From: a virus | IMG/VR virus record: IMGVR_UViG_3300046010_009507 | Span: 1-26,493 of that record | Direction: 5' to 3' (one strand) | Length of the DNA stretch: 26,493 nucleotides | Shown here: one piece after another, positions 61 to 19,238 of the stretch | Layout of the letters: every line of letters begins with the position of its first letter | Numbering within the stretch: position 1 is the first letter of the stretch | Position numbers and translations under genes: made by a program | Notes under the pieces: generated by a model | The model's database searches: none | What the model saw: the letters and a program-made list of their open reading frames with translations, nothing else | Told to the model about the DNA's origin: nothing

Positions 61-1152
61 TTATTTTATTTCTAAATTTACCTGGAACATGTACATCTCA
101 TTGAAATTTTTCAGAAGTGGTTTTGACAATTTAGCAACTGCTAATAATTGATATTTGTTATTGTAAAATCCAATTGTTGTGAAGTATGTATTTGGATCAT
201 TTATGAATTGATTTGTTTTTATTCTACCGTACTGATCGTAAAATGTTGGATTTGTAGTATAATTCATTTGATCAAAACTTATTTTTATAGGCATAGTCAT
301 TACTTGACGCTCAATTACCCCATGTATATATGACCAGTATTTATATGTTGAATTATTAAAGTTATAGATAGACCCAGAAATAGAGCGTAAAAATCGTTCA
401 GCATTTTTTCCGTTTGTGTAAGATGCAGTTTGTGTATTAAATGAAAGTTTTGTATCGAGTACATTTCCATCAAATAACGCGATTGCTTCTTTCGGGTATA
501 ACTTTCCAAAATATATAGGAGACCCGTTTTCATAATAAATTCCGTTTTCCAGTGAACCGGAGACTAGATTGCATATATCGTATGAATGGAAATCAAAGAC
601 AGACTGGCTTTGAAAATATTCTAGATTTATAATATCAGAATATCTTGAACTTGTGTACGGATTTGTTAATTTTATTTCGAATAATTCAGAATACAGAGTA
701 TCTTGACTAGAAGATTTATTAAATTTTAATGCATAAAAATGCGTATAATCATCTAATACCCCTTGTCCAAATATTGATCCATATTTTCTATATATTGCTT
801 TAGTCTCGGTCTTTTCTGTTGGATATTCAATTGATGTACCGTATCCGTTTGCATGGCCATATTCTATTGTAAATTCTTTAGTAGGAGTACCACAACTTTT
901 TGTAGAATACACATTTAGTGAATAATCTCTAAAGTTTGTAGTATCTTGATTTGATTGAGTATAAAAATTTGAAAGTATTGGTTGATTATTATTCCAAATT
1001 GGTATTATCTTTTTAGATGTATCATACTCGATTAACTCTTCAACTATTTGAGTATATGTTGATGATAAGTTATCTACATTTAAAAAATCAAATAACCAAT
1101 TGACACCATAGTCACTTAAAAACCGGTTGTTATCGTACTCAGATTTTGTCAT
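61..1152 (-). CDS. Tandem paralog 7 of 7: phage structural protein, shortest and most diverged copy
   Basis: This 363-residue protein is the last and shortest of the seven-member family in this window. It keeps most of the common core: YGHANGYG near residues 94-104, VSGSLENG near 195, YTTNPTFYD near 294, YFTTIGFYN near 321, and a C-terminal LLAVAKLSKPLLKNF. The middle ILDA.KLN block is altered (ALFDGNVLDTKL) and the FELAL.KLNG block is reduced to LFEIKL. There is no signal peptide or membrane segment. It starts one base after the stop of the 767-residue paralog, so translation is probably coupled. Its place downstream of baseplate wedge genes suggests a virion part at the baseplate rim, a fibre or a fibre connector; that role is inferred. 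It may be a specialised or a decaying copy, but the frame is intact. Confidence 0.62.
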   Translation of the reverse strand: MTKSEYDNNRFLSDYGVNWLFDFLNVDNLSSTYTQIVEELIEYDTSKKIIPIWNNNQPILSNFYTQSNQDTTNFRDYSLNVYSTKSCGTPTKEFTIEYGHANGYGTSIEYPTEKTETKAIYRKYGSIFGQGVLDDYTHFYALKFNKSSSQDTLYSELFEIKLTNPYTSSRYSDIINLEYFQSQSVFDFHSYDICNLVSGSLENGIYYENGSPIYFGKLYPKEAIALFDGNVLDTKLSFNTQTASYTNGKNAERFLRSISGSIYNFNNSTYKYWSYIHGVIERQVMTMPIKISFDQMNYTTNPTFYDQYGRIKTNQFINDPNTYFTTIGFYNNKYQLLAVAKLSKPLLKNFNEMYMFQVNLEIK

Positions 1153-1153
1153 A

Positions 1154-3457
1154 TTAGTACTTCAAATTAACAACAAATTTTAATGATTCATTGAAAGTTT
1201 TCTTCATTGGTTTACTCAGCTTTCCAACTGCCACTAACTGGAAGTTATCATCATATAAACCAATTGTTGTTATGTATGATACTGGTTCATAAAACCATTC
1301 CCTATTCTTTAAAGAGTACGGTGTAAGTTTTCCTTCAAATGGAGCAGTTTGAGCGTACCTAAACAATGGAGAACGATTACGTGAGTAATAGTATGATGGA
1401 TTTGTTGAATAATTAAATTCAGATTCATCCACATTTATTCTTATTGTTTGTAAAATAGATGCTTCCGTTTGGCGTAGCATAAATGGATATGTGGTCCCTC
1501 TTGTTGGTGTTGTAACAGCAGATCCACTTATTGACTTAAACAATCGGAGTGGATTCATGCCATCATAATTTGATTGCGTTACAATTCCATAATTAAGTTC
1601 AGTATTCAGTTTGTTTGCATCTAATAATATCAATCCATACCCAGGATAAATTTTTCCATATACAGTAGGGGCTGACGGGTTATGTACACCATCTTGCAAA
1701 CTACCAGAAACAATATCATAATCAGTTGGCGGTATATACGCAGATCTGTATCTATATGAATCTTTTGTATCGCCTTCTAATAATATACCCTGCGTGATGC
1801 TGGAATCTATTAACTTTATAACAGTATCGGACGTAGTATCCACCTCAGGAGAAGGGTTACCGTTTAGCTTTGCCAATGCTAATTCAAAATTACCAGCATC
1901 TAATGAATTCTTTAATAATTTTGGATTAACTTGTATAGCGAATATTTTTTCGCTTTGCGCAAGTGGTATTAATTTCCTTAAATCAGCTGTTGCATTCAAA
2001 CCCGGTCTGTAATAAAAATCAGAGCCACTTGATACTATATACTGATTGAAATCGTTTACATTTGCTGAAATGTATGTATCATCATCAAGTTTAAATGGAG
2101 GTAACAAATCCGATGTAACTCCCAACGTTAACTCTTGTAGTAAATACAAACTCTGACTCAAGCTGTTATCCGTGAACAGTAGCTTTTTATTTATTGAACG
2201 ATTTCCTGTTAGAGAAACAAACATAGAATATACCGATTTGGAATACCCATACTGACGTCTATCATCGGATAATTTTATAGTACCTGCGCCGTCAAAATCT
2301 CCGTAATAGATAGAAAACATCGTATCATTAGAATCACAACTTCCAGAAATTACATTTAATTTATAAGATTTTTCTGTATTAGTTTGTAATGAACTTGTAT
2401 AGAACTCATATATTGTACCATCACCGCGCCATACACCACTTGTCTTACTAGTCAATGCAGTTATTGATGCGTCAGCTGCTTGTAATGGCTTAAATACATA
2501 TATTGATTCTGCAGTTCTAGAAATTTCCTTTGAATAAACAACTTGTTCAGCAGATCCCGTTATAACAGCACCAGTTCTCTTGTTGCGTCTGCCTTTTATT
2601 TGATATCCAACTAACGTTGTAATTTGTGTGCCACGTGGTCCATCTGAAATAGATTCAACAAACCTCACAGGTCCAGTCAAAACATCCTCAAACTCATCTA
2701 CAAATCTAGATGAACTAACAAGTTCAAATCGTTTTGGTTCAAACGGTAAAAATGGACCAGTTTGTAGCGTTCTATATCCAATTTCTTGGAATGTTGTTTT
2801 GAAATCTTTTTTATAATCACTAAAATCTACAAATGACCCGGTTAAACGGGATATTTCCAAATTGTCCGTGGCTCTTCCAGAAGTTCCAGATGTTCCGGTT
2901 GGCCCATAACAAGGACTGTTTGGATTTTGTTTATTAGTTCCCGGAAATACCTTTTCTTCAAAATCTAATTTTTCACACTTATCATCATAATTGTATTCAT
3001 ACAATGTTATGCGCCGTATGTCAGGTATTTCAGACTTTCCATCCTTTGGTATTACAACAGCCAAGCGTTTTGTATTGTTGTATTTGTAGGGCTTTCCTGC
3101 ATCTAAAATTTCTCGCCGTTCATCTGGTGTAAGCGTTGTATCTTTTAATCGCCTAATGGCTAATTCATCTATAACAGTATCATTTAAAAAGTATGGATTT
3201 CCTTCATAACCCTGTTCTCTTACATTTTCCTCAAATCCACGTTGATCATCTAATAAAAATGCACCATATTCATATGGATCATTAAGATCATATTTTTGTA
3301 GAACTGATATTGGTTGACGTGACTGTTGAACACCGGGTCCGTTATTTCCGTTTGGGTATGCAACATACCACAGAGTTACCCTAGTATTAACATATATTAT
3401 ACCGTCTAAGGTAACTGTATTACCTATACCCGATGTACCAGTCTGTGCACTTACCAT
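1154..3457 (-). CDS. Tandem paralog 6 of 7: long phage structural protein with a large N-terminal extension and short collagen-like tract
   Basis: At 767 residues this is the longest family member. The common core occupies about residues 380-767: YYGDFDGAG near 381, FELALAKLNGN near 522, IVSGSLQDGVH near 582, LLDANKLN near 608, FNYSTNPSYY near 677, YITTIGLYDD near 724, then VAVGKLSKPMKKTF. About 380 residues precede the core and are absent from the other members. This part begins MVSAQTGTSGIG and, near residue 189, has GPTGTSGTSG, three Gly-X-Y triplets of the kind seen in phage fibres and collagen-like proteins. An extra stretch of roughly 90 residues also splits the YG block from the LNG block. 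The extended N-terminus could be a particle-attachment or trimerising part, so this copy is the best fibre candidate of the seven. Function is inferred; family membership is clear. Confidence 0.65.
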   Translation of the reverse strand: MVSAQTGTSGIGNTVTLDGIIYVNTRVTLWYVAYPNGNNGPGVQQSRQPISVLQKYDLNDPYEYGAFLLDDQRGFEENVREQGYEGNPYFLNDTVIDELAIRRLKDTTLTPDERREILDAGKPYKYNNTKRLAVVIPKDGKSEIPDIRRITLYEYNYDDKCEKLDFEEKVFPGTNKQNPNSPCYGPTGTSGTSGRATDNLEISRLTGSFVDFSDYKKDFKTTFQEIGYRTLQTGPFLPFEPKRFELVSSSRFVDEFEDVLTGPVRFVESISDGPRGTQITTLVGYQIKGRRNKRTGAVITGSAEQVVYSKEISRTAESIYVFKPLQAADASITALTSKTSGVWRGDGTIYEFYTSSLQTNTEKSYKLNVISGSCDSNDTMFSIYYGDFDGAGTIKLSDDRRQYGYSKSVYSMFVSLTGNRSINKKLLFTDNSLSQSLYLLQELTLGVTSDLLPPFKLDDDTYISANVNDFNQYIVSSGSDFYYRPGLNATADLRKLIPLAQSEKIFAIQVNPKLLKNSLDAGNFELALAKLNGNPSPEVDTTSDTVIKLIDSSITQGILLEGDTKDSYRYRSAYIPPTDYDIVSGSLQDGVHNPSAPTVYGKIYPGYGLILLDANKLNTELNYGIVTQSNYDGMNPLRLFKSISGSAVTTPTRGTTYPFMLRQTEASILQTIRINVDESEFNYSTNPSYYYSRNRSPLFRYAQTAPFEGKLTPYSLKNREWFYEPVSYITTIGLYDDNFQLVAVGKLSKPMKKTFNESLKFVVNLKY

Positions 3458-3475
3458 TTAATTTCCATAAAAATA

Positions 3476-4948
3476 TTAATAATCAACCCTAACATTAATA
3501 ATTATCGAATTATTAAAACTTTTGCGCTGTGGTCTTGATAATTTAGCAACTGCTATTAAATTATATACAGAGTCATATAATCCAATAGATGTGATATAAC
3601 TCTCTGGTCTTACGTAAAAATCAGTACTTCCAGAATAAAATGCCTTTACTCTCAGATCGCCTGATTTACCATCATAATAAGATGGATTTGTTGAATAATT
3701 AAACTCTTCTGTGCCAAGTATGCACTTATAGAAGATGGAATTAATTGTTTGTTTTATATCAAACCGTGGAGTTGTTACAGTTCCCAGTTGTTGTGCTAAT
3801 AAAGTAGTTTGTATATCAGGGTAGTACGGATTTGTTATATCTGGATTTCCATCTGCAAGTATAGCATATGTCTGTAAACTAGCAGACACTGCTTTATATA
3901 AGCGCTTACTGTTATTAGAAGTTACATTACTACCCGTTTGCAAATTTAAGTTTAAAAGATTATTTAATTTATCGGCATCTAAAATTACAATTCCAGTATC
4001 ATAATATATTTTACCGTATATGATGGGTAGATTGTTTTTTAAATGTACTCCATCTATTAAACTACCAGACACAATATAATCAAACAATTGTGGAGTTGAT
4101 ATCTGTGTTGCTTTTTTAGTTAATTCAATAAATGAATAAATTTCTCGATCATAATATAAATCACGTGTTAAATTTGGATCAGTGTTATTATTAGACGCAT
4201 ATAAATTTATTTTATATTGTCTTTCAAGTTGATTTATGGAAGAACTTCCGTTCATTTTTGCCAGTTTTAACTCAAATGATCTATTATTTGCTATACCATC
4301 ATATAGATAATCAGCACTAACATTAATCGCAAACACGGAATCAACATTTCCAGAGATTTCTATCTTGTCAGCTGTTGGATTTTCATTTGAAAATGTATTC
4401 TGTTTTAATGAATGATATACCGCTTTTGTTGGATATGAAAAATCATAGTTTTGCGTTGCATCGTCATATGTTATTATAGTTCCATCACTAGACCCACTGC
4501 CATAATAATTACCGTATGCTATATCAAATATTCTATATTCATCTTTACTTTTGATATCTGTTACCAATATGGGAGCAAACCCGTTTAAAAATTGGTATGA
4601 TACACTAGCTGTGATATCGGGGGCTATATAGCATTTAGTTAAGTAATCAAATGATTCTTGTTGAACGCTTGACGTATAAAGGTTTTGTAATGCACCCGCC
4701 CCGTGTAACTCATAAAAATATTCTTCGTATACAGATTTTGTTACAATTGTTTTATTTACGGGTATTATTTCCGTTTGATCAAACTGTTTAAATATTTTAA
4801 AATTACTAGATATACTTTCTGCTATAGATGCACTATGCTCAAATATAAAATAATCATCCCATAGTTTTTCTAACTCTTTTGATTTATTTTTAAAATCATC
4901 CAAGCGCTGTGTTGTATTAAACCAATCTTTATATGAAAAAGTACTCAT
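3476..4948 (-). CDS. Tandem paralog 5 of 7: phage structural protein
   Basis: This 490-residue protein has the full family core: AYGNYYGSGS near 146, PTKAVYHSLK after it, FELKLAKMNGS near 223, YIVSGSLIDGVH near 289, VILDADKLN near 318, FNYSTNPSYYDG near 415, YITSIGLYD near 450 and a C-terminal AVAKLSRPQRKSF. The N-terminal 120 residues (charged and aromatic, starting MSTFSYKDWFNTTQRLDDF) resemble those of paralogs 3, 4 and 6 only weakly. The start ATG overlaps the stop of paralog 4 by four bases (ATGA), a typical coupled junction; 18 bases separate its stop from the next gene. No catalytic motif is visible. A baseplate-rim or fibre role is inferred from context. Confidence 0.65.
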   Translation of the reverse strand: MSTFSYKDWFNTTQRLDDFKNKSKELEKLWDDYFIFEHSASIAESISSNFKIFKQFDQTEIIPVNKTIVTKSVYEEYFYELHGAGALQNLYTSSVQQESFDYLTKCYIAPDITASVSYQFLNGFAPILVTDIKSKDEYRIFDIAYGNYYGSGSSDGTIITYDDATQNYDFSYPTKAVYHSLKQNTFSNENPTADKIEISGNVDSVFAINVSADYLYDGIANNRSFELKLAKMNGSSSINQLERQYKINLYASNNNTDPNLTRDLYYDREIYSFIELTKKATQISTPQLFDYIVSGSLIDGVHLKNNLPIIYGKIYYDTGIVILDADKLNNLLNLNLQTGSNVTSNNSKRLYKAVSASLQTYAILADGNPDITNPYYPDIQTTLLAQQLGTVTTPRFDIKQTINSIFYKCILGTEEFNYSTNPSYYDGKSGDLRVKAFYSGSTDFYVRPESYITSIGLYDSVYNLIAVAKLSRPQRKSFNNSIIINVRVDY

Positions 4949-6237
4949 TGCTTTAGCTGTATTTTAATATTATATGCAGTTTGGAAATCTTTTTTTAATG
5001 GTTTGCTTAATTTTGCAACCGCTAAACATTGGCTGTCATCATTGTAAAGTCCGATTGTTGTTATATAAGTAAAAGGATTTTTATAAAATACATCTTTTAT
5101 TCTATCTCCTGCTAAATATGTTGGATTTGTAGACCGATTAAACTCCGCAGGTCCTATTTTTATATAATATTCATCACATATCTGTGTTTCCAAACCAATA
5201 GCAGTTAATTTTTTCTCTTGTGATCCACTATAAAATAAAAGTGATAACCTATGCATATTTGGATAGTATGATGCTGTATAAGTTTCTGTATTAACAGAAT
5301 CAAGAGAATAGAATCCGTATTGATTAGAAAACGGATCAGTTTCATATATAACCTGCTCATATTGAAACAATGAACTGGTAAATGATGCAGTTGTAAATAA
5401 ATTACCAAATATAATTTCTAATTTAGGTACATCCAAAATTGCCAATGCATTTTTTCTGTCTAGCAATCCATAAATATCATAATTACCAGAGACTAAACTT
5501 AAATTATCTTTATTTGATCCAGAAACTATATAAACAATATTATTTTCATTGAAATCAATATTATAGTCAGACGGATCAGTTAAATACAGTGACCTATTTA
5601 ATTGTTTTAAACATAGTTCAAACGAACCTTTTAAAATTTCTTCATGATATACTCTACGAGGTATTTTTATATACACAATTTCACTCGTTGTAAATGATTG
5701 AGAAATTTGTATTAAATCGTTTTCAACAAATCTTTCATCACTTAATATATTTTTTATTGTTTTATATGCTATTTTCGTTGGAGATAATTCTTTGGTTTCT
5801 TGTGGTATGTCATTTGTTTGACCACTTTGTGTTACATTAAATGGGCTACCACTTCCATAATAATTGGCATATCCATAATAATACAATATATTGTTATGAG
5901 AAAGATCAGATTCTAATGTATTGTAATTTAACACGTAACCCATTGATGCACTGTGTGCAAAAATTTTTTGATTGCCTTTATTTGTATTGCTCCTACCAAG
6001 ACGAGTAAAATCAACAGATGATGATACTAAATACTTAAATTGATTATATGATGGGGTATACGCTGATGATGAAAATGATGCGCTTGACTCCCACATATGA
6101 AATGGGGTTAAAACTTTTTGATTTAAAAAAATATTTTTTTGTTCTATTTTTTTAAAAGTCATTCCATTTGAATATAGATTATACAACTGATAATCGTAAT
6201 CTTCATTTTCTTCAATATGTGTATATACGTCTTTCAT
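4945..6237 (-). CDS. Tandem paralog 4 of 7: phage structural protein with an altered central domain
   Basis: This 430-residue member keeps both ends of the family core: NYYGSGSP near 121, FELCLKQLNRS near 204, YIVSGS near 234, then FNRSTNPTYLAG near 362, YITTIGLYND near 388 and LAVAKLSKPLKKDF at the C-terminus. The central portion is diverged: the usual DADKLN is DVPKLE, and the TGS...RLFKSISGS segment is not recognisable. The diverged part runs from about residue 265 to 355 and is rich in Tyr, Ser and Thr. The start shares one base with the preceding stop (TAATG) and the stop overlaps the next start by four bases. Function is not known; a structural role is inferred. Confidence 0.63.
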   Translation of the reverse strand: MKDVYTHIEENEDYDYQLYNLYSNGMTFKKIEQKNIFLNQKVLTPFHMWESSASFSSSAYTPSYNQFKYLVSSSVDFTRLGRSNTNKGNQKIFAHSASMGYVLNYNTLESDLSHNNILYYYGYANYYGSGSPFNVTQSGQTNDIPQETKELSPTKIAYKTIKNILSDERFVENDLIQISQSFTTSEIVYIKIPRRVYHEEILKGSFELCLKQLNRSLYLTDPSDYNIDFNENNIVYIVSGSNKDNLSLVSGNYDIYGLLDRKNALAILDVPKLEIIFGNLFTTASFTSSLFQYEQVIYETDPFSNQYGFYSLDSVNTETYTASYYPNMHRLSLLFYSGSQEKKLTAIGLETQICDEYYIKIGPAEFNRSTNPTYLAGDRIKDVFYKNPFTYITTIGLYNDDSQCLAVAKLSKPLKKDFQTAYNIKIQLKQ

Positions 6238-7868
6238 TATGATTTTATATTAACCTTAAACATATATGTTGTTACACTATCTTTTTTTAATGGCTTACTT
6301 AACTTACCAACCGCCAATAGTCTATACATATCATCGTATAATCCAATAGTTGTTATATATGTTATTGGATTATATTTAAATTCATCTTTAACTAAATATT
6401 TTTTAAATCTAGTATGTGGGAGTTGGTATTTTGCTTTATATGCTGAGAAATCACCCAAATACTCACATTCGCAATCGCCCTTTTCATACTTATAAAAATA
6501 AGCTGCGTAAATTTTAGTTGGTGATTGTTTTGAAGGATAATACCAATAAACATACCGCTGTTCTAACGGATTTAATTTATCACATCCTTCATCTGCATTT
6601 ATAAATGATTGACAATTTTTTGGCAATGAGCTCGATTCTATAATCCCTGCCTCATTTAATTGATTTTTTATCCATGACGGGTTGTTTGTGTAATTAAATT
6701 CATTTGGTTTTACAACCAAAAACACAGGATTTATTACTCTATCCTCGTGTACTTTGCATTTAAAATACTGTGGAGAGTAATTAGATGCGGTTGTTATTAG
6801 TAAATCATTGCTTGACGGATTGCTGTTTAAATATGAACACGCCTGAAGTGATTTAAATAGTCTATAATGGTTTAATCCTTCTTCAAACATAGAAGTTGCA
6901 GAAGGTGGATACAAAAGATCCTCAGTTGATCCTGTATACATATTTAAATTTATCTTTTGATTTAATTTATTAGCGTCTAAGACAAGAATACCCAAATCAT
7001 AATAAATTTTTCCGTATATATCTGTTTCAATTGTATTACCAATCGTTCCACTAACTAATAACGAATATCCGCCTACTTGGTAATCAAATTCATATTCTAC
7101 TATGCTATCCGTTAATGTTATGTAACTGGATGTGTATATATTTGATGCGTTTGAGTAGTTATTCACAACTGCATTTTTCATAAATGGTAATTGAACTGAA
7201 CCAGTAATAATTCCATTTTTTAAAATATTTTTGTCTAAATGTATAACATATATGTTATCATATGACCCAGTTCCAACTAAAAATGTACTACCTGTTTCAT
7301 GTAAAATTGTTTTATATGTATTATATACACTGTTTGGTTGTTGATATATTGTTGGATTTGGTACGTAACTTGCGGTTGTTGCATATGTATTTATCATACC
7401 TATGCTTTCTGATACACTTCCCCATGCCAACGTAAATACTCTAGAGTCTGGGATCAATCCGAATGTTGAATATCCGTATTCTGATGCTGAATTTTCAAAC
7501 ACTATCTTTGGACTATCTGCATATATACCGTAACTAATATTAATATGCTCAGAGCCGGTTGTTTCTAAGGGGATTTTTATACTACTATATATATCTAAGT
7601 AATATACATACGATGATACACTCTGCGTCAAGAACGAGTATGGTGTAATGCTTGGAAATACTATTTTGTTAAACGAAGAAGATACGTTATATGAAACAAA
7701 ATGTATATATGGTGTTTTTTCAGATGGCCAGTTTCTAGGTATTTCTGCTATAGGCCACAATTTATTTGTTGGTGCAACCAAATCGTTATTACCACCCCAA
7801 GCGCCAGATACTGAAGTGTTTTTTTGATTTAATACGCTTAGTACATCTACATTTTTATACGCAAACAT
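6237..7868 (-). CDS. Tandem paralog 3 of 7: phage structural protein with a cysteine-containing insertion
   Basis: This 543-residue member has LLVSGTIGN near 269, LVLDANKLN near 291, RLFKSLQ after it, FNYTNNPSW near 387, YITTIGLYDD near 501 and a C-terminal LAVGKLSKPLKKDS. Between the NPS and YITTIGL blocks, where other members have about 15-35 residues, it carries roughly 95 extra residues (about 400-495). These include four cysteines (in NCQSF, GCDKL and DCECEY) and many aromatic and lysine residues. The N-terminal region also differs: the usual YG.R.G.G block is degenerate. The insertion could be a disulfide- or metal-stabilised loop or small domain exposed on the virion, which is inference. 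It starts one base after the stop of paralog 2. Confidence 0.64.
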   Translation of the reverse strand: MFAYKNVDVLSVLNQKNTSVSGAWGGNNDLVAPTNKLWPIAEIPRNWPSEKTPYIHFVSYNVSSSFNKIVFPSITPYSFLTQSVSSYVYYLDIYSSIKIPLETTGSEHINISYGIYADSPKIVFENSASEYGYSTFGLIPDSRVFTLAWGSVSESIGMINTYATTASYVPNPTIYQQPNSVYNTYKTILHETGSTFLVGTGSYDNIYVIHLDKNILKNGIITGSVQLPFMKNAVVNNYSNASNIYTSSYITLTDSIVEYEFDYQVGGYSLLVSGTIGNTIETDIYGKIYYDLGILVLDANKLNQKINLNMYTGSTEDLLYPPSATSMFEEGLNHYRLFKSLQACSYLNSNPSSNDLLITTASNYSPQYFKCKVHEDRVINPVFLVVKPNEFNYTNNPSWIKNQLNEAGIIESSSLPKNCQSFINADEGCDKLNPLEQRYVYWYYPSKQSPTKIYAAYFYKYEKGDCECEYLGDFSAYKAKYQLPHTRFKKYLVKDEFKYNPITYITTIGLYDDMYRLLAVGKLSKPLKKDSVTTYMFKVNIKS

Positions 7869-7869
7869 G

Positions 7870-9105
7870 TTAAAACTCTAATTGTACTTTTATTAAATAC
7901 TCTTTTCCAAAGTATTTTTTAAGAGGTCTTGATAATTTAGCAACTGCTAATAAATCAGACTGGTCATTATATAACCCAACTGCGGTTATGTATGTATATG
8001 GATTTTTTATAAATGAGTTATATTTTAACTGACCGCTTGAACCAGTTATATATGTTGGATTTGTACTATAGTTATAATCAAATGAACTAGCATTTACAAA
8101 ATAATAATTTATGTTTGTAACTGAATCGCCGCGAACAACAAAAGAGTGTGTTGGTGGTGATGATATAGTTGAAATTGAGCTAGTCCCCGCATTTAAAGAA
8201 ACTGCTCCTTCAATCGATTTATATAATTTATATGAATTGAATCCATCTATATTTGAACCGGTTACACTATTAAAATTTAAGTATGAATCTAAACGCGTAG
8301 CATCCAAAATAGCAAGTCCTAGGTCTGGGTATATTATTCCATAATACTCGTATGACCCATCTGATTTTGTCACAATACCAGATCCAATTGACCCGGAAAC
8401 TAAATTAAATACACGCCCATTTTGAGTTAAAATGTTATCATCTTGATTATTATCTGGGATTAGTGTTAACATTTTATAACTGCCTGTTTTATATGATACA
8501 CTACTTCCAGTATGTTGGGCGTTTTGGTATAGATTTCCGTTTAATTCTCTAAGTGCAATTTGAAAATAATTAGGATTTATTGCATCTTGAAAATATTGCT
8601 GTGTAAAACTTATTCCATAAATTCTATCGGAATTTATTCCATCTCCAAATGTGAATGTATCATCTTCTGGTTCCAGACATTTTGTTGCATACTGTTTATA
8701 TACAACACGTGTTGGAAAATAATAATTAGTTTCCAATGACCCACTACCAAAACGATCTCCATAAAATAAGGAGAATTGTGCAGCAGAATTTATAGATTCA
8801 GTAAGAAAATAAGTATTTACATTAAATGCAGAATTCGTGACTTCGGTTTCTAAGTAAAACTTTTTTAAATTTTCATTTTGAAAAGATGATGTTTGTATGT
8901 TGATTAAATCAAATGTATTTGTATGCCAAAAATTGTTAGTTACAAATTTTTTTGAATTTAAAATAACTTCATCTTCGCCAAATAATGTAAATATTTTACC
9001 GTAATTACCAAGTTCAATACTAGCTTTTCTGTTTTCGGTTAATTTATCCGATAAACTTTTTACAGTTTCATCAATAAAACCAGCTAATTGATTATTATCT
9101 GCCAT
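7870..9105 (-). CDS. Tandem paralog 2 of 7: phage structural protein, canonical form
   Basis: This 411-residue protein is close to the minimal complete family form: FYGDRFGSG near 112, PTRVVYKQY just after, FQIALRELNGN near 180, NLVSGSIGSGI near 234, AILDATRLD near 262, a TGSNIDG...KLYKSIEGA segment near 280, YNYSTNPTYITG near 341, YITAVGLYND near 369 and LLAVAKLSRPLKKYF at the C-terminus. Block for block it is most like paralog 1, including the TPEDEQFSF/EPEDDTFTF stretch, so these two look like the most recent duplicates or the least diverged. Two bases separate its start from the previous stop. There is no signal peptide, membrane segment or catalytic motif. A tail or baseplate structural role is inferred. 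Confidence 0.66.
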   Translation of the reverse strand: MADNNQLAGFIDETVKSLSDKLTENRKASIELGNYGKIFTLFGEDEVILNSKKFVTNNFWHTNTFDLINIQTSSFQNENLKKFYLETEVTNSAFNVNTYFLTESINSAAQFSLFYGDRFGSGSLETNYYFPTRVVYKQYATKCLEPEDDTFTFGDGINSDRIYGISFTQQYFQDAINPNYFQIALRELNGNLYQNAQHTGSSVSYKTGSYKMLTLIPDNNQDDNILTQNGRVFNLVSGSIGSGIVTKSDGSYEYYGIIYPDLGLAILDATRLDSYLNFNSVTGSNIDGFNSYKLYKSIEGAVSLNAGTSSISTISSPPTHSFVVRGDSVTNINYYFVNASSFDYNYSTNPTYITGSSGQLKYNSFIKNPYTYITAVGLYNDQSDLLAVAKLSRPLKKYFGKEYLIKVQLEF

Positions 9106-9107
9106 TA

Positions 9108-10367
9108 TTAGTATTCCAGCTTAATAGTAATCAAATATTCATCAAAAAATGTTTTCTTTAACGGTTTTGATAATTTTGCAACCGCCAATAATTCATAATT
9201 TGGATTATATAATCCGATGGATGTAATGTATGATACTGGATTGTACGTAAAATCACGGTGGACTAATTCTGCTCTGCTTCCCGTATAATATGTTGGATTG
9301 GTTGAATAGTTATATTGATAATTCCTTATTCTAACATAATAGTAAGAATTTGTCTTTATATCTACTTTTCTAGCAAAAAATGATGATGTTGCAGTTCTAG
9401 TATTTGTTGGCTGGGCCGCACCTGAAATAGCGGTCAATAATTTTATATTATTATTTCCATTTACGTATGATCCAGACGTAACATTGAATCCAAGTTCGCT
9501 GTTCAACTTATCGGCATTTAATACAAGAACACCATAGTCAGCATAGAATAATCCGTATGCTTCATTTGATGCGGTGTGTATTCCGTTCTCAATTGTCCCA
9601 GATACTATATTAAATACACGTGTTGATGTTGTAATGGATGGTGATACATCAACCGAATCGCGTGAATCATCTATTAATGTTATTACTTTAGATGAACCAG
9701 AATCAACTTTAATTGCTGCACTTGCCGTGTATGTTCCGTTTGGATATAAATTACCATCAAGTTTAGCCAATGCAAGTTCAAAATTACCAGGATCTACCTT
9801 GTCTCCAATTAATTTTGAATTAAAGTTAATAACATATATGTTATCTGAAGTTAAGTATGCAGAACCTGTCTTAAATGAAAACTGCTCGTCTTCTGGTGTC
9901 AACAATAATTGCCTATACTGCTTGTATATAGCCCTCGTTGGCGTATCGTCTGGTTGTCCCTCTGCTTCGGTTTCACCATAGCCAAATCTATTACCATACG
10001 CAATATAAAATTCCGTAGAATCATCACACGATGAAGTTGAAGACTGTATCTTCAAGTAATAATCGAGCTGGGCATCTGTTAACCCAGATGCAGTATAAAA
10101 AGTGCTTAAACTAGCACTTGTATTGCTCCAAAGACCCTTTGTTTCTGCATAAACATTATTAGTTATGACATCTCCAGAGGAGAACTGTGTATATACTAAT
10201 ATTACGTTTGATGGTGGATAACTAGTTAATGGCGCTACTATATCAGCATTGGTTATCTGATCGATATCCAATCCTCCCATAGCTGCATCCGCAGATTGAG
10301 CAGCTGAGGCCGCAGCCATGTTACCTGCAGCTGCCTGACCAGCCAATGTATTTTGATTTAAAGCCAT
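9108..10367 (-). CDS. Tandem paralog 1 of 7: phage structural protein, canonical form with Ala-rich N-terminus
   Basis: This 419-residue protein is the first transcribed member of the array. Its core blocks are IAYGNRFGYG near 121, PTRAIYKQYR after it, FELALAKLDGN near 192, NIVSGTIENGIH near 252, LVLNADKLN near 278, YNYSTNPTYYTG near 350, YITSIGLYN near 376 and LLAVAKLSKPLKKTF near 390. The first 35 residues are unusually rich in alanine and glycine (AGQAAAGNMAAASAAQ), suggesting a flexible or helical attachment peptide. A good Shine-Dalgarno sequence (AAGGA, 8-base spacer) supports the start. It follows the 223-residue collar-fibre-like gene by 19 bases. I recall similar C-terminal blocks in uncharacterised proteins of environmental T4-like phages, but no function is known to me. 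Confidence 0.67.
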   Translation of the reverse strand: MALNQNTLAGQAAAGNMAAASAAQSADAAMGGLDIDQITNADIVAPLTSYPPSNVILVYTQFSSGDVITNNVYAETKGLWSNTSASLSTFYTASGLTDAQLDYYLKIQSSTSSCDDSTEFYIAYGNRFGYGETEAEGQPDDTPTRAIYKQYRQLLLTPEDEQFSFKTGSAYLTSDNIYVINFNSKLIGDKVDPGNFELALAKLDGNLYPNGTYTASAAIKVDSGSSKVITLIDDSRDSVDVSPSITTSTRVFNIVSGTIENGIHTASNEAYGLFYADYGVLVLNADKLNSELGFNVTSGSYVNGNNNIKLLTAISGAAQPTNTRTATSSFFARKVDIKTNSYYYVRIRNYQYNYSTNPTYYTGSRAELVHRDFTYNPVSYITSIGLYNPNYELLAVAKLSKPLKKTFFDEYLITIKLEY

Positions 10368-10375
10368 TTAATTCA

Positions 10376-10380
10376 TCCTT
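10376..10380 (-). promoter_or_regulatory. Ribosome binding site of the first tandem paralog
   Basis: AAGGA lies eight bases before the ATG at 10367-10365. It lies in a true 19-base gap and not inside the upstream gene. This makes the first paralog one of the few array members with independent initiation; the others mostly rely on coupled starts. Confidence 0.55.
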
Positions 10381-10386
10381 TTAATA

Positions 10387-11058
10387 TTAACTAGCTGGGT
10401 TATTAGTTCCAGCTGCTGTTCCTGGGATTGCGGCTGATACTACGATTGGTATTACAATTCTTCCGCCTGTTTCATTTCCAATGATTGTCAATGTTGTTGA
10501 TCTTTGCAATACAGCATCATACTTAGGATTGATGCTACATTTCAGACCAACTCTAGTTATAGCTTGTGGTGCTTCCGTATCACCAACAAACCTAGCAACT
10601 GTTGGTGTAATTGCTCTTGATGCAGGTGTAACATCTATTATGTCAGCAACTGTATTGTCACCAAGAATGAACGTATATCCTAATGTTGAATTAGCTCCAA
10701 CAAAATTGATTGTAGTTGGCTCAACAATTTTTGCACCTTCCCCAGAAAAAGTAAGACGTTCAACGTTTACTTTTATTACTGGGATTACCGGAGTATTTCT
10801 TGGTAGTGTTATAAGTTTATATTTTAGATTTAATGTCTCATCTGGTACAGCTTCTGTTACCGGCATATTTTCGATAACAACGCCATAATAATCACTACCA
10901 TTAGGGTGTGCAGGATTCCATAAATCATAATCAACTTCATCATCCGAAAGTGCAAACTGAGTTATCTTGAATTCATTTCTGTTTCTAGCTAATAACTCCC
11001 TGCCTTTTTTAGTTAAAATTGCATCTACTGTTATTGTAGAATTATTTAAATATCCCAT
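10387..11058 (-). CDS. Tail-collar-fibre-like structural protein
   Basis: The 223-residue protein begins MGYLNNSTITVDAILTKKGR, followed by ELLARN...FKITQFALSDDEVDYDLWNP. The LT..GRELLA...F.IT.FAL.DDE pattern is like the N-terminus of tail-collar and tail-fibre attachment proteins (LT..G...LA......I..FA.GDG), which dock fibres to the baseplate. From about residue 90 on it is beta-rich, with many Val, Ile and Thr and few charges, and it ends in an Ala/Gly/Pro tail. Similar proteins beginning MGYLNN are, from memory, common in environmental T4-like phages as uncharacterised structural proteins. It sits between the large wedge protein and the seven-paralog array, which suits a connector between them. 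It has the best ribosome binding site in the window and a 54-base leader, implying high expression. The role is inferred. Confidence 0.6.
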   Translation of the reverse strand: MGYLNNSTITVDAILTKKGRELLARNRNEFKITQFALSDDEVDYDLWNPAHPNGSDYYGVVIENMPVTEAVPDETLNLKYKLITLPRNTPVIPVIKVNVERLTFSGEGAKIVEPTTINFVGANSTLGYTFILGDNTVADIIDVTPASRAITPTVARFVGDTEAPQAITRVGLKCSINPKYDAVLQRSTTLTIIGNETGGRIVIPIVVSAAIPGTAAGTNNPAS

Positions 11059-11112
11059 TTCATTACTCCTATAAGAATTTCATTTTAAATAAATATGTGT
11101 ATAACAACTTTT
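11059..11112 (-). promoter_or_regulatory. Largest intergenic gap with a strong ribosome binding site; possible internal promoter
   Basis: This 54-base gap between the 1282-residue gene and the 223-residue gene is the longest non-coding stretch in the window. AGGAG at 11066-11070 lies seven bases before the ATG at 11058. Upstream, the minus strand reads an A/T-rich run including CATATTTATTTAAAA. That is not the T4 late promoter consensus TATAAATA, so a promoter here is only possible. No hairpin with a T-run is seen, so there is no evident terminator. Confidence 0.35.
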
Positions 11113-14100
11113 TTATACTCCAGGTGGTATTATATTTGGATCTATAAATACATTATTATTAGGATTTCCAAGCGAAGAGCTATATTGTACATTTTGTGAT
11201 CCTGACGGTATTATAGTTACAGGCACCGCTAATGCTAATCCTGGGTTATCTAGGTTTATGTAGTTGACATCAAACGATGATACCTTCGATCCATAATACC
11301 TATGATTTTCAGCCCCCTTGTGTAATCTCTTTATAAAATATGGATTATTTCCAAATTTTAAACTTGCATCTGATGGTTTGTTTATTGATGCAGACGCATC
11401 ATTTCCAAAAGTATATTCAATTGTTGCATAGTAAAAATTATTAGCTGTACCATCTATTGTATTAAAAATATTTATCGATTTTGCATAATCCAAATTTTCG
11501 TATCCGCGCTGTCTTCCCAATAATGGACTAGTATAAGTATATGACAAATCGTTATTAGATACTGGATATACAAAATTATTTATTTTTGTTTTTAGCTCTT
11601 TAGATGTTTTAGATAACAAAGGCAGTAATGTTATTGTTGAATTATACTCTGGTTTGCTACTCATTACTGAGTTTATTTGGGTTGATTGTATTAGAGAAGA
11701 ATTCATTTGAAGAAACGAGTTTTTAATAGTATATATTTGGTCTATTGTACCCGAAGGTGGTACAGACGCGGATATATACAAGATATCCTTTTCTTGAATC
11801 TTTCCATTAAACCCAGATAATGTTGCTGTTCTGTTTCCCTTTTTTACAAATTCAATTAAATTTGATTGATCAACTGTAGCAGATAGCATAGGTAATTGCT
11901 TTAATTTTATTCTTTGTAACTCATTATTTTCTATTATCAATCCAATTATTGCATTTGCCTTTGCTGGTATAACTTGTTTTATCTGTTCAAATATGGTAAA
12001 ATCATATATTTTTAATGCTTTTAGATAGCTGTGAATATCATCGGTTGTTCTACTATTCTGAAAATAAAACTTTGCTAGATCTAACAGCTTTACGTAATAT
12101 TTTTTATCGGTATCTACTGGAGATCCGATATATTCATCTAATTCAAATGTTCCAAATCTATTGAAAATATCTTCGTTTATATTAAACTGTGGTGAAAATC
12201 CTATTTTTATTTTATTTTCATCATTTGGTTTGTAATCATATGATGACAATTCTACACGAGTATTATACGATAAGTTGCCCAATAAAGTTGATGATTCAAC
12301 TCGCTCTTTTTCTGGTATTATTGCATTATCTGCTATTGTTGGAATTTCAAATTTAACAAACTCGCTGTATGCAACAACAGACCCAGTATCTCTTGATAAA
12401 ATCACTTGGGCATTGTATATGTTGGTTTGATTAATATTTCCAACGGTAATCGGAGCAAGTTTATCATTTTGATATGCATTTTCCAACCATGCTGGATATC
12501 TGGCTATAAGGTCATATGTACTTTGTGATACATTATTTCCATGATATGAAAGAGGTGATAACATATGAGATTTCATAATCTCTTCATCAACCGGTGATTT
12601 CCAGTATCGAACTTCGTTCAAATAGAATTTTATATTACCATCATTGCAAAATGTTATAGATTCCGATGAAAAAAGTGCATTGGTATAATCACCGTAAAGA
12701 TTTATGCTAGTTGATTCAAAGAAGTTAACTTTATCATAATTTTTTTGCAGAAAATATAGATTTAATGAGGCAGACTGTGCACTCTGTGATACTATTCTAT
12801 CTGTTTGTAAAAATATTGCAGATGGTAATTCATCAATATATTCTATATTTTTTATAGAGCTTGATATCTGTCCTAAACTAGAAGATACTGTTAATATAAT
12901 ATTACCAGTATAATCAGTTGATCCACTTTTCTCTAAATCTATTTTTACATGATTTCCTTTAGAAAATAGGTTACCATACGCAACTGTATTTGGGTCAAAT
13001 ATAAATCTAAAATAGGTTGATGTTGGGTAACTTAAAGATCCAGTGTAATCTGAAAACTGTATGAATGGTACTTGAAAATATTCGTCTAACTGTAAATCCA
13101 AGTACCTTATTAATTTTTCTTCTTTATGTTTTGGCCGTGTGTCTTGGTTACCAACTCCACCAAATTCTCGTATAAAAAATTGTGAAGCAGGTATACCATA
13201 TGCAGATACCAATGCCTTTACCGAACGATCGGTTCCTTTAGATTTTAGGATTTTTGGTAAATTTAAAAGGATACGCTTCCAAATTGCTTTTGTATAATCA
13301 CTAGATGGCAATGCATATGATGTGTCATTTATATTGGTTCTCTTTAGTTTCTTCATTTCATCATAACCAAAGAAATTAAACCACAGATCTTTTAATTTTT
13401 GACTCTCATTTAATTTCCATCCGTAATTATTAGCCATGTGTACTAATAAATCTTTTGATATACCAAAGTCTGGGTGCTCATCTTGTGCATATTTATCATT
13501 AAAATGTGTAATATATAACCATATAGTATCAAAATAGTGTGCTATCATATTAACAAATAAAAGATACTCGCTATTATTTGAATCATCTCTGATAAATTCT
13601 GGTATTGTTCTTATTAATTGTGCTTCATTATCAAAGTCATATTCTCTTGCCGTTTCAATTGCTGCGTCTTTCCATGCCAAATATATATCACTGTTAATAT
13701 CAATTGTTTCAAATGCATATGGAATTCCAGGCCCAACCGCCCAAATAACATTAGCGTTTACCCAGGTTTGTGCCCAATCAATCCAGACAATACTTTCCAA
13801 ATCCTCAGATCTTGTTGTTTTTATTATTGGTGGAATTGGATATGTTACATCATTTCTTTTTGATGAATCCAACTCATAATATAAAAACATTTCAAAATCA
13901 TCAAATGATTGTAACAAAAGATTTTTAGATGTAGAATACAGCAATATATCAGAATTTTGCGTACTATCTAATCCGTATATGGCATTTATTTGCTCTTGAT
14001 ACCATGCAATTAATTCTACTTTGTATGTAAAATTTAAAATTCTTTCTTCCAATGAAGAATAATGAACAAAGCTCGATAAATCAGAAAAATCTATGTTTAG

Positions 14101-14961
14101 TTTTATTCCATATTTTCTTCGAAATAAATTATTGACAGTTAGCTCTGCAGTATCTGTGTTAGATGATACTATATCAGTCCAAGTTTTATAATCAGATTCT
14201 AAATGAGTCCAATATAACTTTTCAACATCGGTTTGTGGTTCCTGTAGAGTATTCCCAGAAATATTGACAATAGGTGGGACAATCTGTAGGGAATCTATAT
14301 ATGGTTGTGTTAGCATTTCTGATATCCAACACGAATTCTGTATTGAAAATTGTGGTGGCAACGGATCAAACAGCTTAATATAAATCTTATTTTGTATATT
14401 ATCTGTACTAATATTTGCAATTGGTACTAAATTATTTTGACCAAAATTCAGTACTGAATTTATAAAAAATACTCGTTGGTTTGCCCAATATTTAAAGAAG
14501 TTATTTAGATCATTTACAGATGTTTGATCATCAGGTGATTCCAATTTTAATATTAATTCAGTTCTTGAAGGCGATATATCATATATAAAAAGTTTTTCGG
14601 TTGCAAATGAACCAACTCTATCATGCAGTATATTATATGTAAATTTATAAACACCAGCTGTTACACCAAGCTCAGAAAGATCTGCCTCTAAATCAAATAA
14701 AACAGTTTCATCATCTATAATTTGAACATTTGGTGAATATTGTGAGCCAACTAAATATGCACCGTCAACTGAATACACATGAAATTCTATGGTTCGTTTT
14801 GAATACGGAGATCCTGTTCTTGAGAAAGATTCTAAATTTAAATTTGGATAAAATTGTGCAGGAGATAAAAGTTTACTCTGTGATTTAGCAAAAAAAGAAC
14901 CATTTGTTGGTTTATTTGATCTAAATATTTCAGTTGAATTTTTGTATTGATATAATGACAT
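11113..14961 (-). CDS. Large baseplate wedge/tail protein (T4 gp7 position; tail protein I-like and LamG-like segments)
   Basis: At 1282 residues this is the largest protein here; T4 gp7, the wedge protein next to gp6, is about 1030. Near residues 560-600 it has LNLPKILKSKGTDRSVKAL, then YGIPASQFFIREFGG. This is the KSKGT-R----L...YGIP pattern found in P2 gpI-like tail proteins and large phage baseplate proteins. Residues about 640-810 are beta-rich and end with IKFYLNEVRYWKSPVDEE and then a HMLSPLSYHGN stretch, a signature of LamG/concanavalin-like domains in phage tail proteins. Residues 1-130 look like beta-sandwich modules. It follows the coiled-coil gene by one base. I infer a wedge scaffold contacting gp6, with the LamG-like part as a possible surface or glycan contact. 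It could instead be a tail-fibre network protein. Confidence 0.65.
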   Translation of the reverse strand: MSLYQYKNSTEIFRSNKPTNGSFFAKSQSKLLSPAQFYPNLNLESFSRTGSPYSKRTIEFHVYSVDGAYLVGSQYSPNVQIIDDETVLFDLEADLSELGVTAGVYKFTYNILHDRVGSFATEKLFIYDISPSRTELILKLESPDDQTSVNDLNNFFKYWANQRVFFINSVLNFGQNNLVPIANISTDNIQNKIYIKLFDPLPPQFSIQNSCWISEMLTQPYIDSLQIVPPIVNISGNTLQEPQTDVEKLYWTHLESDYKTWTDIVSSNTDTAELTVNNLFRRKYGIKLNIDFSDLSSFVHYSSLEERILNFTYKVELIAWYQEQINAIYGLDSTQNSDILLYSTSKNLLLQSFDDFEMFLYYELDSSKRNDVTYPIPPIIKTTRSEDLESIVWIDWAQTWVNANVIWAVGPGIPYAFETIDINSDIYLAWKDAAIETAREYDFDNEAQLIRTIPEFIRDDSNNSEYLLFVNMIAHYFDTIWLYITHFNDKYAQDEHPDFGISKDLLVHMANNYGWKLNESQKLKDLWFNFFGYDEMKKLKRTNINDTSYALPSSDYTKAIWKRILLNLPKILKSKGTDRSVKALVSAYGIPASQFFIREFGGVGNQDTRPKHKEEKLIRYLDLQLDEYFQVPFIQFSDYTGSLSYPTSTYFRFIFDPNTVAYGNLFSKGNHVKIDLEKSGSTDYTGNIILTVSSSLGQISSSIKNIEYIDELPSAIFLQTDRIVSQSAQSASLNLYFLQKNYDKVNFFESTSINLYGDYTNALFSSESITFCNDGNIKFYLNEVRYWKSPVDEEIMKSHMLSPLSYHGNNVSQSTYDLIARYPAWLENAYQNDKLAPITVGNINQTNIYNAQVILSRDTGSVVAYSEFVKFEIPTIADNAIIPEKERVESSTLLGNLSYNTRVELSSYDYKPNDENKIKIGFSPQFNINEDIFNRFGTFELDEYIGSPVDTDKKYYVKLLDLAKFYFQNSRTTDDIHSYLKALKIYDFTIFEQIKQVIPAKANAIIGLIIENNELQRIKLKQLPMLSATVDQSNLIEFVKKGNRTATLSGFNGKIQEKDILYISASVPPSGTIDQIYTIKNSFLQMNSSLIQSTQINSVMSSKPEYNSTITLLPLLSKTSKELKTKINNFVYPVSNNDLSYTYTSPLLGRQRGYENLDYAKSINIFNTIDGTANNFYYATIEYTFGNDASASINKPSDASLKFGNNPYFIKRLHKGAENHRYYGSKVSSFDVNYINLDNPGLALAVPVTIIPSGSQNVQYSSSLGNPNNNVFIDPNIIPPGV

Positions 14962-14962
14962 C

Positions 14963-15784
14963 TTACGCTCCTATACCAATTTTTTTGAAATTTTCAATAA
15001 TTTCTTCGTATGTGTTAGATGCTATAAATACCATTTCAACCTTTGCTTTAAATTCTGCGAACTCTGATTCTTTTTGTGTTAATCTAGTGGTTGCATCTAC
15101 AACCAATCGTTGTGCTTCTTCTTGGATTTTTCTTAACTCCTCTTGACGATCTTGTTCTTGTGTTGCAAGACCCAATGCTTCTTCTGATATTGACTGTTGT
15201 AACGCATTTATTTCGTCTCTAAAAGATGCATTATCTATTTCCAACCCAAGAATCACATCTTTAAAATTTGTCTTATCTGTTTCTAACAAAGACATTTTAT
15301 TTTTTAAACTTTCGATCTGCTCTTTCAATTGCTCTATAATTTCAGCTGAATTATCAACATTAACAACAAATTCGCTAAATGTGACATCAAAAACATATTT
15401 AATCTTTGCTTTTTTATATCTAGTTGTTACTGTATCAAGCGTTAATAATACAGGACTAGGGACTCCAACTGTATTGTCAATTTTTATTGCCCCAGCTGCA
15501 TTTCTTTTTATACCATCCATCCCACTTTTATTGTTTGTAGCAAATATATTTTTTATAATTTGCTCTCTCAGTAATTCAGATGGTAATTTTCCATTAACAT
15601 CATTTGTTATTATTCTTCGTATTAGTTGTTCTTCAAATACGCTAAAATCGGCACGTTTAGCAGCAAATCCAGATAGCAATCTATCTGTCTCATTTGATGG
15701 TCCTTCGCCATTCATTATGTTTAATTCTTCCATGAGTACTTCTTTTATCTGAAGTAAATCATCGGCTGATAATACTTGGCTCAT
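14963..15784 (-). CDS. Coiled-coil structural protein of the baseplate cluster
   Basis: This 273-residue protein has two parts. The first 140 residues are mixed helix and strand with a basic stretch (TTRYKKAKIKYVFDVTFSE near 119-137). Residues about 145-255 are a long charged heptad-rich coiled coil, starting EIIEQLKEQIESLKNKMSLL and rich in Glu, Gln, Lys and Leu. It ends in a short helix (EEIIENFKKIGIG). I do not recognise a family. The start overlaps the stop of the DNRLRE-like gene by four bases, and the next gene starts one base after its stop, so it lies within the wedge operon. The coiled coil may mediate trimerisation or pack along the gp6/gp7 wedge, much as helical bundles do in T4 wedges; that is inference. 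It is far too short for a tape-measure protein. Confidence 0.55.
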   Translation of the reverse strand: MSQVLSADDLLQIKEVLMEELNIMNGEGPSNETDRLLSGFAAKRADFSVFEEQLIRRIITNDVNGKLPSELLREQIIKNIFATNNKSGMDGIKRNAAGAIKIDNTVGVPSPVLLTLDTVTTRYKKAKIKYVFDVTFSEFVVNVDNSAEIIEQLKEQIESLKNKMSLLETDKTNFKDVILGLEIDNASFRDEINALQQSISEEALGLATQEQDRQEELRKIQEEAQRLVVDATTRLTQKESEFAEFKAKVEMVFIASNTYEEIIENFKKIGIGA

Positions 15785-16860
15785 CTAACAACCTTAAAAT
15801 ATATGTTATCGTCTAAAATATATTGCTCAAATTGGTCAACTTTAACTTTTACTAGAATTTTATAGAATCGTTCTGGTTGGAAATTATCCATAAAAATATT
15901 GAAGTAATTGCTTGTTGAATCACAACTTATTTTTGTCCCCACATCATCAAACGGTATTATTATATCGTCTGTAACAGTATCTCTAATTTCATAATAAGAT
16001 GATGATGGCAATCTATAGTTAATTAAATATCTAGATTGTGTTGCATACGTTCTTTCTAAAAATTTAGGTCTAGAGAACAATCGTATTTTTGTTTTTTCAT
16101 TTTGATTATAAACTTCTTTTATTCTAGAGTAAATAATAAACTCTTTATTTGTATCTATTAGAGATAGACTTCCTGTTTGATACGATGAATCATCCCAAAT
16201 AATTTTTAGTTTTGGCGAGTATATGGTGTTTGATTCATTAGAAAAGAATTTGTATGAATAATAACCATAGTTCGATAACTCACTTCCAGATGTAAATTTT
16301 ATTATGAGACCATCATTGCTGATTATGCTGCTACTGTATGCATTGAATATTTGACTAACATTAATATTTAAATCATTTTTTATATTCGTAATAGAACTTG
16401 TGATTCTATAATTGCTTTCAGTATACCAAGTACCACCACCAGTAACTGCGTTATATGCATAACTTGTTGGTCTAGAGCCAGTTGTTACCCATTCAATTGA
16501 TCCTGAAAAATCACGCCATTTCCATGACGTTCCATTTTTTACTGGTACATTATCATTTGCATTACCTGTTCCATTTTCCCATGCTCCACTTACAGGACGT
16601 GTCTCTATTGATACCTCTATTGGTGATTCTTCTATTTTTGCTACATACAGGTTTAACGAATATGTTGGTGATTGGACATTATATGTAGATAAAAAACTAT
16701 TAATTTCCGATTGGTCAAACTTTAATAGTATTCTAGAATTATAATACAGATTTCCTTTTTTTTCATGTAATAATTCTAGAATAGAATCCATTCCTGTATT
16801 TGAATCTAGCTTAGTTTCATATAATGTTGCATCTTTTATTGGATAAAAAATATTAACCAT
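15781..16860 (-). CDS. DNRLRE-like beta-rich baseplate-cluster protein
   Basis: The 359-residue protein begins MVNIFYPIKDATLYET, then DSNTGMDSILELL and NSRILLKFD near residues 40-50. This DATLYE...NTG...L......R.LLKFD layout is that of DNRLRE-type beta-sandwich domains, which typically also have a W-containing stretch downstream (here VSGAWENG and SWKWRDFSGSIEW near 105-125). The rest is rich in Ser, Tyr and Thr and ends in strands (FQPERFYKILVKVKVDQFEQYILDDNIYFKV). DNRLRE domains are best known from bacterial surface and secreted proteins; in this phage context I infer a structural or surface-contact part at the wedge. It shares one base with the gp6-like stop and overlaps the next gene by four bases. 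Assignment is by pattern only. Confidence 0.52.
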   Translation of the reverse strand: MVNIFYPIKDATLYETKLDSNTGMDSILELLHEKKGNLYYNSRILLKFDQSEINSFLSTYNVQSPTYSLNLYVAKIEESPIEVSIETRPVSGAWENGTGNANDNVPVKNGTSWKWRDFSGSIEWVTTGSRPTSYAYNAVTGGGTWYTESNYRITSSITNIKNDLNINVSQIFNAYSSSIISNDGLIIKFTSGSELSNYGYYSYKFFSNESNTIYSPKLKIIWDDSSYQTGSLSLIDTNKEFIIYSRIKEVYNQNEKTKIRLFSRPKFLERTYATQSRYLINYRLPSSSYYEIRDTVTDDIIIPFDDVGTKISCDSTSNYFNIFMDNFQPERFYKILVKVKVDQFEQYILDDNIYFKVVR

Positions 16861-18752: not shown

Positions 18753-19238
18753 TTACTCTACAGTTAAAGTTCCTTGATTATCAATAAATATTACAACATT
18801 AATATTTGATTGAGTTGGATCGAATTGCAATCTTAAGTTTATTTTTAAAGAATTTTCTGAATTTTTCCCCATAGCTGGTACCGGCGTTTCAATATCAAGT
18901 GATTTTAACGTAACATATGGAGTCCAAAAATCAAATGCGGATACTAACGTTGATCTGATTTTACTTTCTATTTCTCCGGTATCCGTTATTTGTTCAAAAA
19001 GTATGCGATGTAAATCTGTTCCAAAATCTATGTGATAAACGCGCTCACCTTTCTTTGTTGATAACAAATTAATTACGTTTGTACGCATTTGATCATCAGA
19101 AAAAAACGATTTATTAAATACACCACCACCCTCTACATTAAATGGAAGTGTAACACCAATCGAATTTTGATAAATAAAAGAGCCACTTTTATCTGCCGTT
19201 ACAAATGGCTCATCCAAACGTGTAAAATTAAATGCCAT
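18753..19238 (-). CDS. gp25: Baseplate wedge protein, gp25/GPW family
   Basis: This 161-residue protein is slightly longer than T4 gp25 (132 residues) and has the family signature at residues 50-84: QMRTNVINLLSTKKGERVYH followed by IDFGTDLHRILFEQI. The GER...DFG..L....FE pattern is found in gp25 and in T6SS TssE. The C-terminal half has the expected helix (ESKIRSTLVSAFDFWTPYV) and strands ending VIFIDNQGTLTVE. gp25 joins the inner wedge (gp6) to the first sheath ring and starts sheath assembly. Its start shares one base with the stop of the 105-residue gene. The N-terminal 45 residues, Gly- and Phe-rich, extend beyond the usual domain. Confidence 0.92.
   Translation of the reverse strand: MAFNFTRLDEPFVTADKSGSFIYQNSIGVTLPFNVEGGGVFNKSFFSDDQMRTNVINLLSTKKGERVYHIDFGTDLHRILFEQITDTGEIESKIRSTLVSAFDFWTPYVTLKSLDIETPVPAMGKNSENSLKINLRLQFDPTQSNINVVIFIDNQGTLTVE

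Follow-up and report, generated by a model that had tools for sequence, protein, structure and literature searches.

The seven consecutive minus-strand open reading frames P1-P7 at 61-10367 of the virus record IMGVR_UViG_3300046010_009507 (positions 1 to 26,493; this whole 26,493-nt stretch is referred to as the window) are true paralogs. Together with an eighth member found beyond the window end, they probably, on balance, encode a set of specialised subunits that form a hetero-oligomeric structure at the baseplate periphery of a contractile-tail phage of the Far-T4 type. All seven were present at the coordinates given by an earlier sequence-only reading, and their lengths agree with its range of 363 to 767 residues. 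The eighth member was revealed by a second contig, L001 (IMGVR_UViG_3300046009_006318), which matches 11,152 nt of the window at 100% identity and extends ~10 kb beyond the shared stretch. In this contig P8 directly follows P1, which showed that the window end cuts the array and that the earlier count of seven has to be corrected to eight. P8 carries an inserted Laminin_G_3 domain (LamG, a ConA-like lectin domain; PF13385, E 2.8e-16), and downstream of it lie a gene for phage endonuclease I (PF05367) and two large open reading frames resembling, by eye, a primase and an SbcC/D-type nuclease. Also downstream of the array is the gene for a collagen-like protein carrying long repeats of the GTSG type (L001:17636-19840), and P2 (window 1154-3457) has a similar but short stretch, GTSGTSG, in its N-terminal part. 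The intergenic spacing across the array ranges from -4 to +19 nt (gaps of 1-19 nt or overlaps of 1-4 nt). No terminator-like sites were detected between the array genes on the coding strand, promoter-like sites were no more numerous than in shuffled sequences, and the T4 late-promoter motif TATAAATA occurred below the chance count, with none positioned ahead of the array genes.

Table 1. Genes of the array and of the adjoining putative baseplate module. Positions refer to the window unless a contig is named.
Feature	Position	Strand	Description
P1	61..1152	-	A clade; 363 aa, shortest copy; AlphaFold2-modelled
P2	1154..3457	-	A clade; 767 aa; extra N-terminal region of ~300 aa
P3	3476..4948	-	A clade; 490 aa
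P4	4945..6237	-	A clade; 430 aa; A copy with the greatest divergence
P5	6237..7868	-	A clade; 543 aa; internal insertions
P6	7870..9105	-	A clade; 411 aa
P7	9108..10367	-	A clade; 419 aa; heads the array; AlphaFold2-modelled (pLDDT 81.9)
P8	L001:11110-13098		Outside the window; B clade; 662 aa; eighth member; family profile E 5.8e-18
N223	10387..11058	-	Conserved, single-copy; 223 aa; immediately precedes the first family gene in nearly every relative with that stretch
B1282	11113..14961	-	1282-aa protein of the putative baseplate module; size and place of T4 gp7 / P2 gpI
273-aa protein	14963..15784	-	Coiled-coil-rich; putative baseplate module
359-aa protein	15781..16860	-	Conserved; putative baseplate module
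gp6/J-like baseplate wedge protein	16860..18749	-	phrog_6 E 3.6e-19; phrog_219
gp25/W-like baseplate wedge protein	18753..19238	-	PF04965 E 6.5e-8

The paralogy of the seven genes had been proposed from an ordered set of shared blocks. For a chance test, a family profile was built solely from relatives in other contigs, with the window sequences left out. This profile detected all seven proteins at E 1e-122 to 1e-33 (P7 1.2e-122, P6 9.8e-102, P2 1.7e-78, P1 9.2e-66, P3 1.6e-59, P5 5.3e-40, and P4 9.7e-34), whereas the best E value among the other window proteins was 0.44, and shuffled and reversed controls were non-significant with the exception of reversed P8 (9e-5, 12.9 bits). The results confirmed that the shared blocks are related. 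The blocks align across the copies as described, but some copies lack particular ones; for example, a clean FELAL.KLNG is absent from P1 and P5, RL.KSISG is missing in P4, and YG..GSG is missing in P5. Pairwise core identity is 23-41% among P1-P7 and 19-41% across all eight copies, all of which are intact. A recent tandem duplication was rejected, as copies at such identities are old and diverged. Comparison of P1-P7 with Pfam and PHROGs matched no family at a meaningful score.

Genes for gp25- and gp6-like baseplate wedge proteins lie upstream of the array and share its operon direction, and in nearly every sufficiently long relative the array adjoins, at its upstream side, the genes for N223 and the 1282-aa, 359-aa, gp6-like and gp25-like proteins. 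From this gene content we read the stretch as a contractile-tail baseplate module, of which the array would form the downstream end. The structural-module setting assumed earlier was thus recovered in the window and in its relatives alike, and the location of the array is supported. Matches of Tail_P2_I to homologs of B1282 were weak and were obtained in only 3 of 25. Within the window, PF12571 (the P2 gpH-type tail-fibre N-terminal domain) gave no match at E 10, and a search with PF09684 gave no match either. In addition, the C-terminal part of the protein encoded at window 22442-24418 looks, by eye, like a CHAP-type cysteine peptidase/amidase (PYCMSFAF...GHGIII), with no Pfam match at E 0.1.

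A scan of viral contigs yielded at least 587 relatives, from which 80 loci were retained, a sample biased toward those nearest the query. Named carriers are Microcystis phage Mel-JY01, Flavobacterium phage immuto, a 484-kb uncultured phage and Rhodothermus phage RM378; the copies number five in Mel-JY01, two in immuto, two in LR756508 and one in RM378. In the named phages the family members are labelled 'hypothetical protein' or carry no annotation, and the arrays are placed after N223, as in the window. Among the arrays fully inside their locus, 34 hold two copies, four hold three, two hold five and one holds eight; additional five-member arrays sit near contig ends. Two copies are also found in whole contigs of 140-145 kb, in agreement with the earlier remark that phages usually keep one or two. 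An RM378-type major capsid protein was detected in 8 of the 13 family-carrying records other than RM378, including all those above 100 kb, with 40-44% identity in the main matches; the protein is not within the 26-kb window. On the basis of this co-occurrence, the carriers fit the 'Far-T4' group (PMC4360716, PMC7198788).

Several individual loci showed further features. In L179, L180 and L181 the family and N223 occur on short contigs binned in two Flavobacteriaceae MAGs and one unclassified marine MAG; these are possibly misbinned phage contigs and perhaps hint at Bacteroidota hosts. A 1507-aa family member (L075:11027-15550) gave Hint and Hom_end-associated Hint matches below the Pfam cut-off, suggesting a possible intein inside a baseplate-region protein. 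Unrelated open reading frames lie between the family members of a three-copy locus (L062:6306-6863, 185 aa; 8928-11546, 872 aa), and the three-copy loci L050 and L065 are also gapped, in contrast to the tight arrays elsewhere. The third copies of two five-gene arrays (L038:12173-15295 and L003:12273-15227) gave N-terminal ASH/HYDIN-type Ig-like matches below the Pfam cut-offs.

Phylogenetic analysis divided the family into two clades, A (without the lectin domain) and B, with support of 100/98. P1-P7 fall in A and P8 in B. The LamG domain was present in 52 of the 52 B members scanned, and the trees and gene maps that were inspected place B as the final array gene. Given this split, the LamG domain in all B members and the constant last place of B, the ancestral set is most simply one A plus one B. 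In the five-copy phages, positions c1-c5 each form their own clade over four phages, and in the three-copy loci copies one and two are sister groups, so that expansions probably happened more than once. A single clade for the seven A copies of the present phage is allowed by the AU test (p 0.448), which means that their single origin within this lineage is neither rejected nor demonstrated.

Retention of the complete set of eight is documented in two phages only, the present one and a second one represented by L086/L088. In the latter, eight matching genes were found in the same order and with nearly equal lengths, each being the 1:1 ortholog of one member here (P7 74%, P6 64%, P5 45%, P4 55%, P3 55%, P2 52%, P1 51%, and P8 62% identity), and each pair is supported at 100/99-100. 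NG86 dN/dS was 0.15-0.44 for all eight pairs, ratios that are rough because dS is near saturation. All eight genes are under purifying selection. The copies diverge at about the rate of B1282 (53%), with P5 slightly ahead, and outpace N223 (84%). The lowest ortholog identity lies mostly near the N-termini and no clearly hypervariable tip was seen, a pattern that, in the one phage pair compared, is apparently that of specialised structural subunits and not of hypervariable tips.

These data bear on two explanations in which the copies would have no separate structural roles. Redundant or drifting duplicates, retained by chance or for dosage, would fit the lineage-specific copy numbers (2, 3, 5, and 8), but this explanation is largely refuted and very improbable, as the eight copies are intact, only 19-41% identical, individually orthologous and under purifying selection. 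A cassette reservoir for sequence variation, drawn on by recombination or by a diversity-generating retroelement, would account for homologous genes in tandem with variable regions. It is disfavoured to the point of being hardly credible: the copies are too diverged for recombination, every copy retains its own ortholog, and no reverse transcriptase was recognised within the window. The non-redundancy of the copies is therefore supported, and eight same-order 1:1 orthologs under purifying selection lend indirect support to the hetero-oligomer suggested by the sequence-only reading. A set of receptor-binding proteins whose specificities are fixed would also be expected to show this conservation of separate paralogs.

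AlphaFold2 models were obtained for P7 (pLDDT 81.9, pTM 0.75) and for the divergent P1 (pLDDT 85.3, pTM 0.77). Although the two proteins are only ~30% identical, both models showed the same order of elements, namely an early strand, a mixed middle part and, covering the YITTIGLY...LLAVAKL block, a set of C-terminal strands, and the shared region thus has a common predicted fold rather than different folds. Foldseek searches of the PDB with the two models returned nothing significant. In VIA-align, the top neighbours of both models were the T4-type gp8 9f4a, which was confirmed as a gp8 homolog, and the 108-aa Sf14 and Bas63 neck proteins; gp8 1n7z was among the top neighbours of the P7 model only. 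The top Z scores of 4.7-5.3, with rmsd 2.3-3.5 over 71-79 residues, indicate weak resemblance, the next unrelated rows having Z 4.0 and 3.4, and a Z near 5 can reflect merely a common arrangement of elements. Homology to gp8 was not supported by hhalign, which gave no match with either the single T4 gp8 or a 40-sequence gp8 family. Since sequence profiles give no gp8 match, gp8 is used here as a structural analogy, not as a statement of membership. Foldseek against viral models (BFVD) at E<=1e-3 matched unnamed or uncharacterised proteins plus ones annotated as ConA-lectin/LamG, and no function could therefore be transferred. For the B clade, those PHROG matches with a reported position fall mostly within the LamG region, outside the core, and its PDB matches were LamG/ConA-type jelly rolls of unrelated proteins.

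The neck proteins among these neighbours raise the question of whether the array might instead build a different accessory of the virion, for example neck whiskers, or tail fibres in which repeating, non-identical subunits are stacked. The Sf14 whiskers are indeed hetero-assemblies of two proteins and an adapter (PMC11821841). However, the structural resemblance is weak and shared by gp8, and in the loci examined the genes follow the baseplate cluster and not neck or head genes, which makes this assignment improbable.

We return to specialised subunits at the baseplate periphery, for which the following scheme may be proposed. Each subunit would consist of one beta-sandwich scaffold, in which the early beta-strand is paired to those of the C-terminal part (YITTIGLY...LLAVAKLSKPLKK...). 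In the virion, this shared sandwich would dock the subunits to one another and to the wedge (the 1282-aa and 223-aa neighbours), and the differing N-terminal extensions and insertions may set the place or partner of each subunit. The earlier proposal that a conserved C-terminus docks and a variable N-terminus distinguishes the copies holds in part: in A-type members the shared core spans nearly the whole protein, and the part that the A type has in common with the LamG-bearing B type is limited to roughly the last 120 aligned residues. The ancestral set would have comprised one plain subunit (A) and one into which a LamG lectin domain is inserted (B). Repeated duplication of the A gene would then have produced copies that became non-interchangeable, giving seven A plus one B. 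Through its LamG domain, P8 would expose a lectin towards the cell surface, where B subunits may bind glycans.

The regular presence of the LamG lectin domain in the B member also suits the other possibility raised earlier, a diversified receptor-binding set in which adhesins on a common docking domain each meet a different surface ligand. So do the variation in copy length (363 to 767 aa), the Ig-like matches, N-terminal and below Pfam cut-offs, in the third copies of some relatives, and the existence of branched multi-spike complexes in Ackermannviridae (PMC11414711). However, Pfam and PHROGs revealed no adhesin, lectin, depolymerase or fibre domain in P1-P7, LamG being present only in P8, and the collagen-like protein encoded downstream is a better fibre candidate. 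Moreover, ortholog identity drops mainly toward the N-termini without a clearly hypervariable tip, and the order and 1:1 orthology of the genes are fixed over deep divergence, unlike those of swappable adhesins. Because seven of the eight members carry no recognisable binding domain and, P5 excepted, diverge no faster than B1282, this possibility is less favoured and appears rather unlikely.

Returning to specialised baseplate subunits, we tentatively put forward a bolder version, with the balance leaning somewhat against it: one six-fold baseplate rim or arm may be built from eight versions of a single duplicated protein, the expansions (from two to three, five, and eight) having arisen independently in several Far-T4 lineages and then become locked in, as a ratchet of hetero-oligomer complexity. 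Far-T4 phages occur widely in both fresh water and the sea, and to our knowledge their tail tips are almost undescribed. They now gain a conserved, previously uncharacterised family with an apparent ancestral plan of a plain plus a lectin subunit and a graded copy-number series. The cultivated two-copy phage immuto and five-copy phage Mel-JY01 make the step from duplication to a ring of non-interchangeable subunits directly testable.

Among known systems, gp10, gp11 and gp12 of T4 are encoded by sequential genes, are thought to be derived from one fold and share a flower motif (PMC3004832). As is proposed for the array, they are consecutive co-transcribed genes for peripheral baseplate proteins of one fold that co-assemble as different subunits; unlike the array, they are three trimeric proteins whose kinship was recognised from structure, whereas the array has up to eight members with clear sequence homology. 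The gp8 profile comparisons found no T4 homolog of the array family. The neighbourhood of T4 gp8 (1n7z, 9f4a) nevertheless resembles that of the array, in the order gp25, gp6, a large protein, and gp8 or the array, but T4 has just one gp8 gene against a multi-copy array, and no sequence homology between the two was detected. In Ackermannviridae, up to four different tailspikes (TSP1-TSP4) are joined via shared domains (PMC11414711). There the gp10-like XD domains that the tailspikes share sit at the N-terminus and the C-termini are the spikes, whereas the shared domain of the array is C-terminal and a spike domain was not seen in the A copies. Paralogous domains repeated in several virion proteins of phage 0305phi8-36 were proposed to form a common anchorage system (PMC2147016); that phage, likened here by description, belongs to a different host group, and its domain families are scattered instead of forming a single ordered array. 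The arrays of Mel-JY01, immuto, LR756508 and RM378 are of the same family and in the same place, with fewer than eight copies. What sets the present array apart from the T4, Ackermannviridae and 0305phi8-36 systems is the family it belongs to, the C-terminal position of the shared domain and how many copies are retained.
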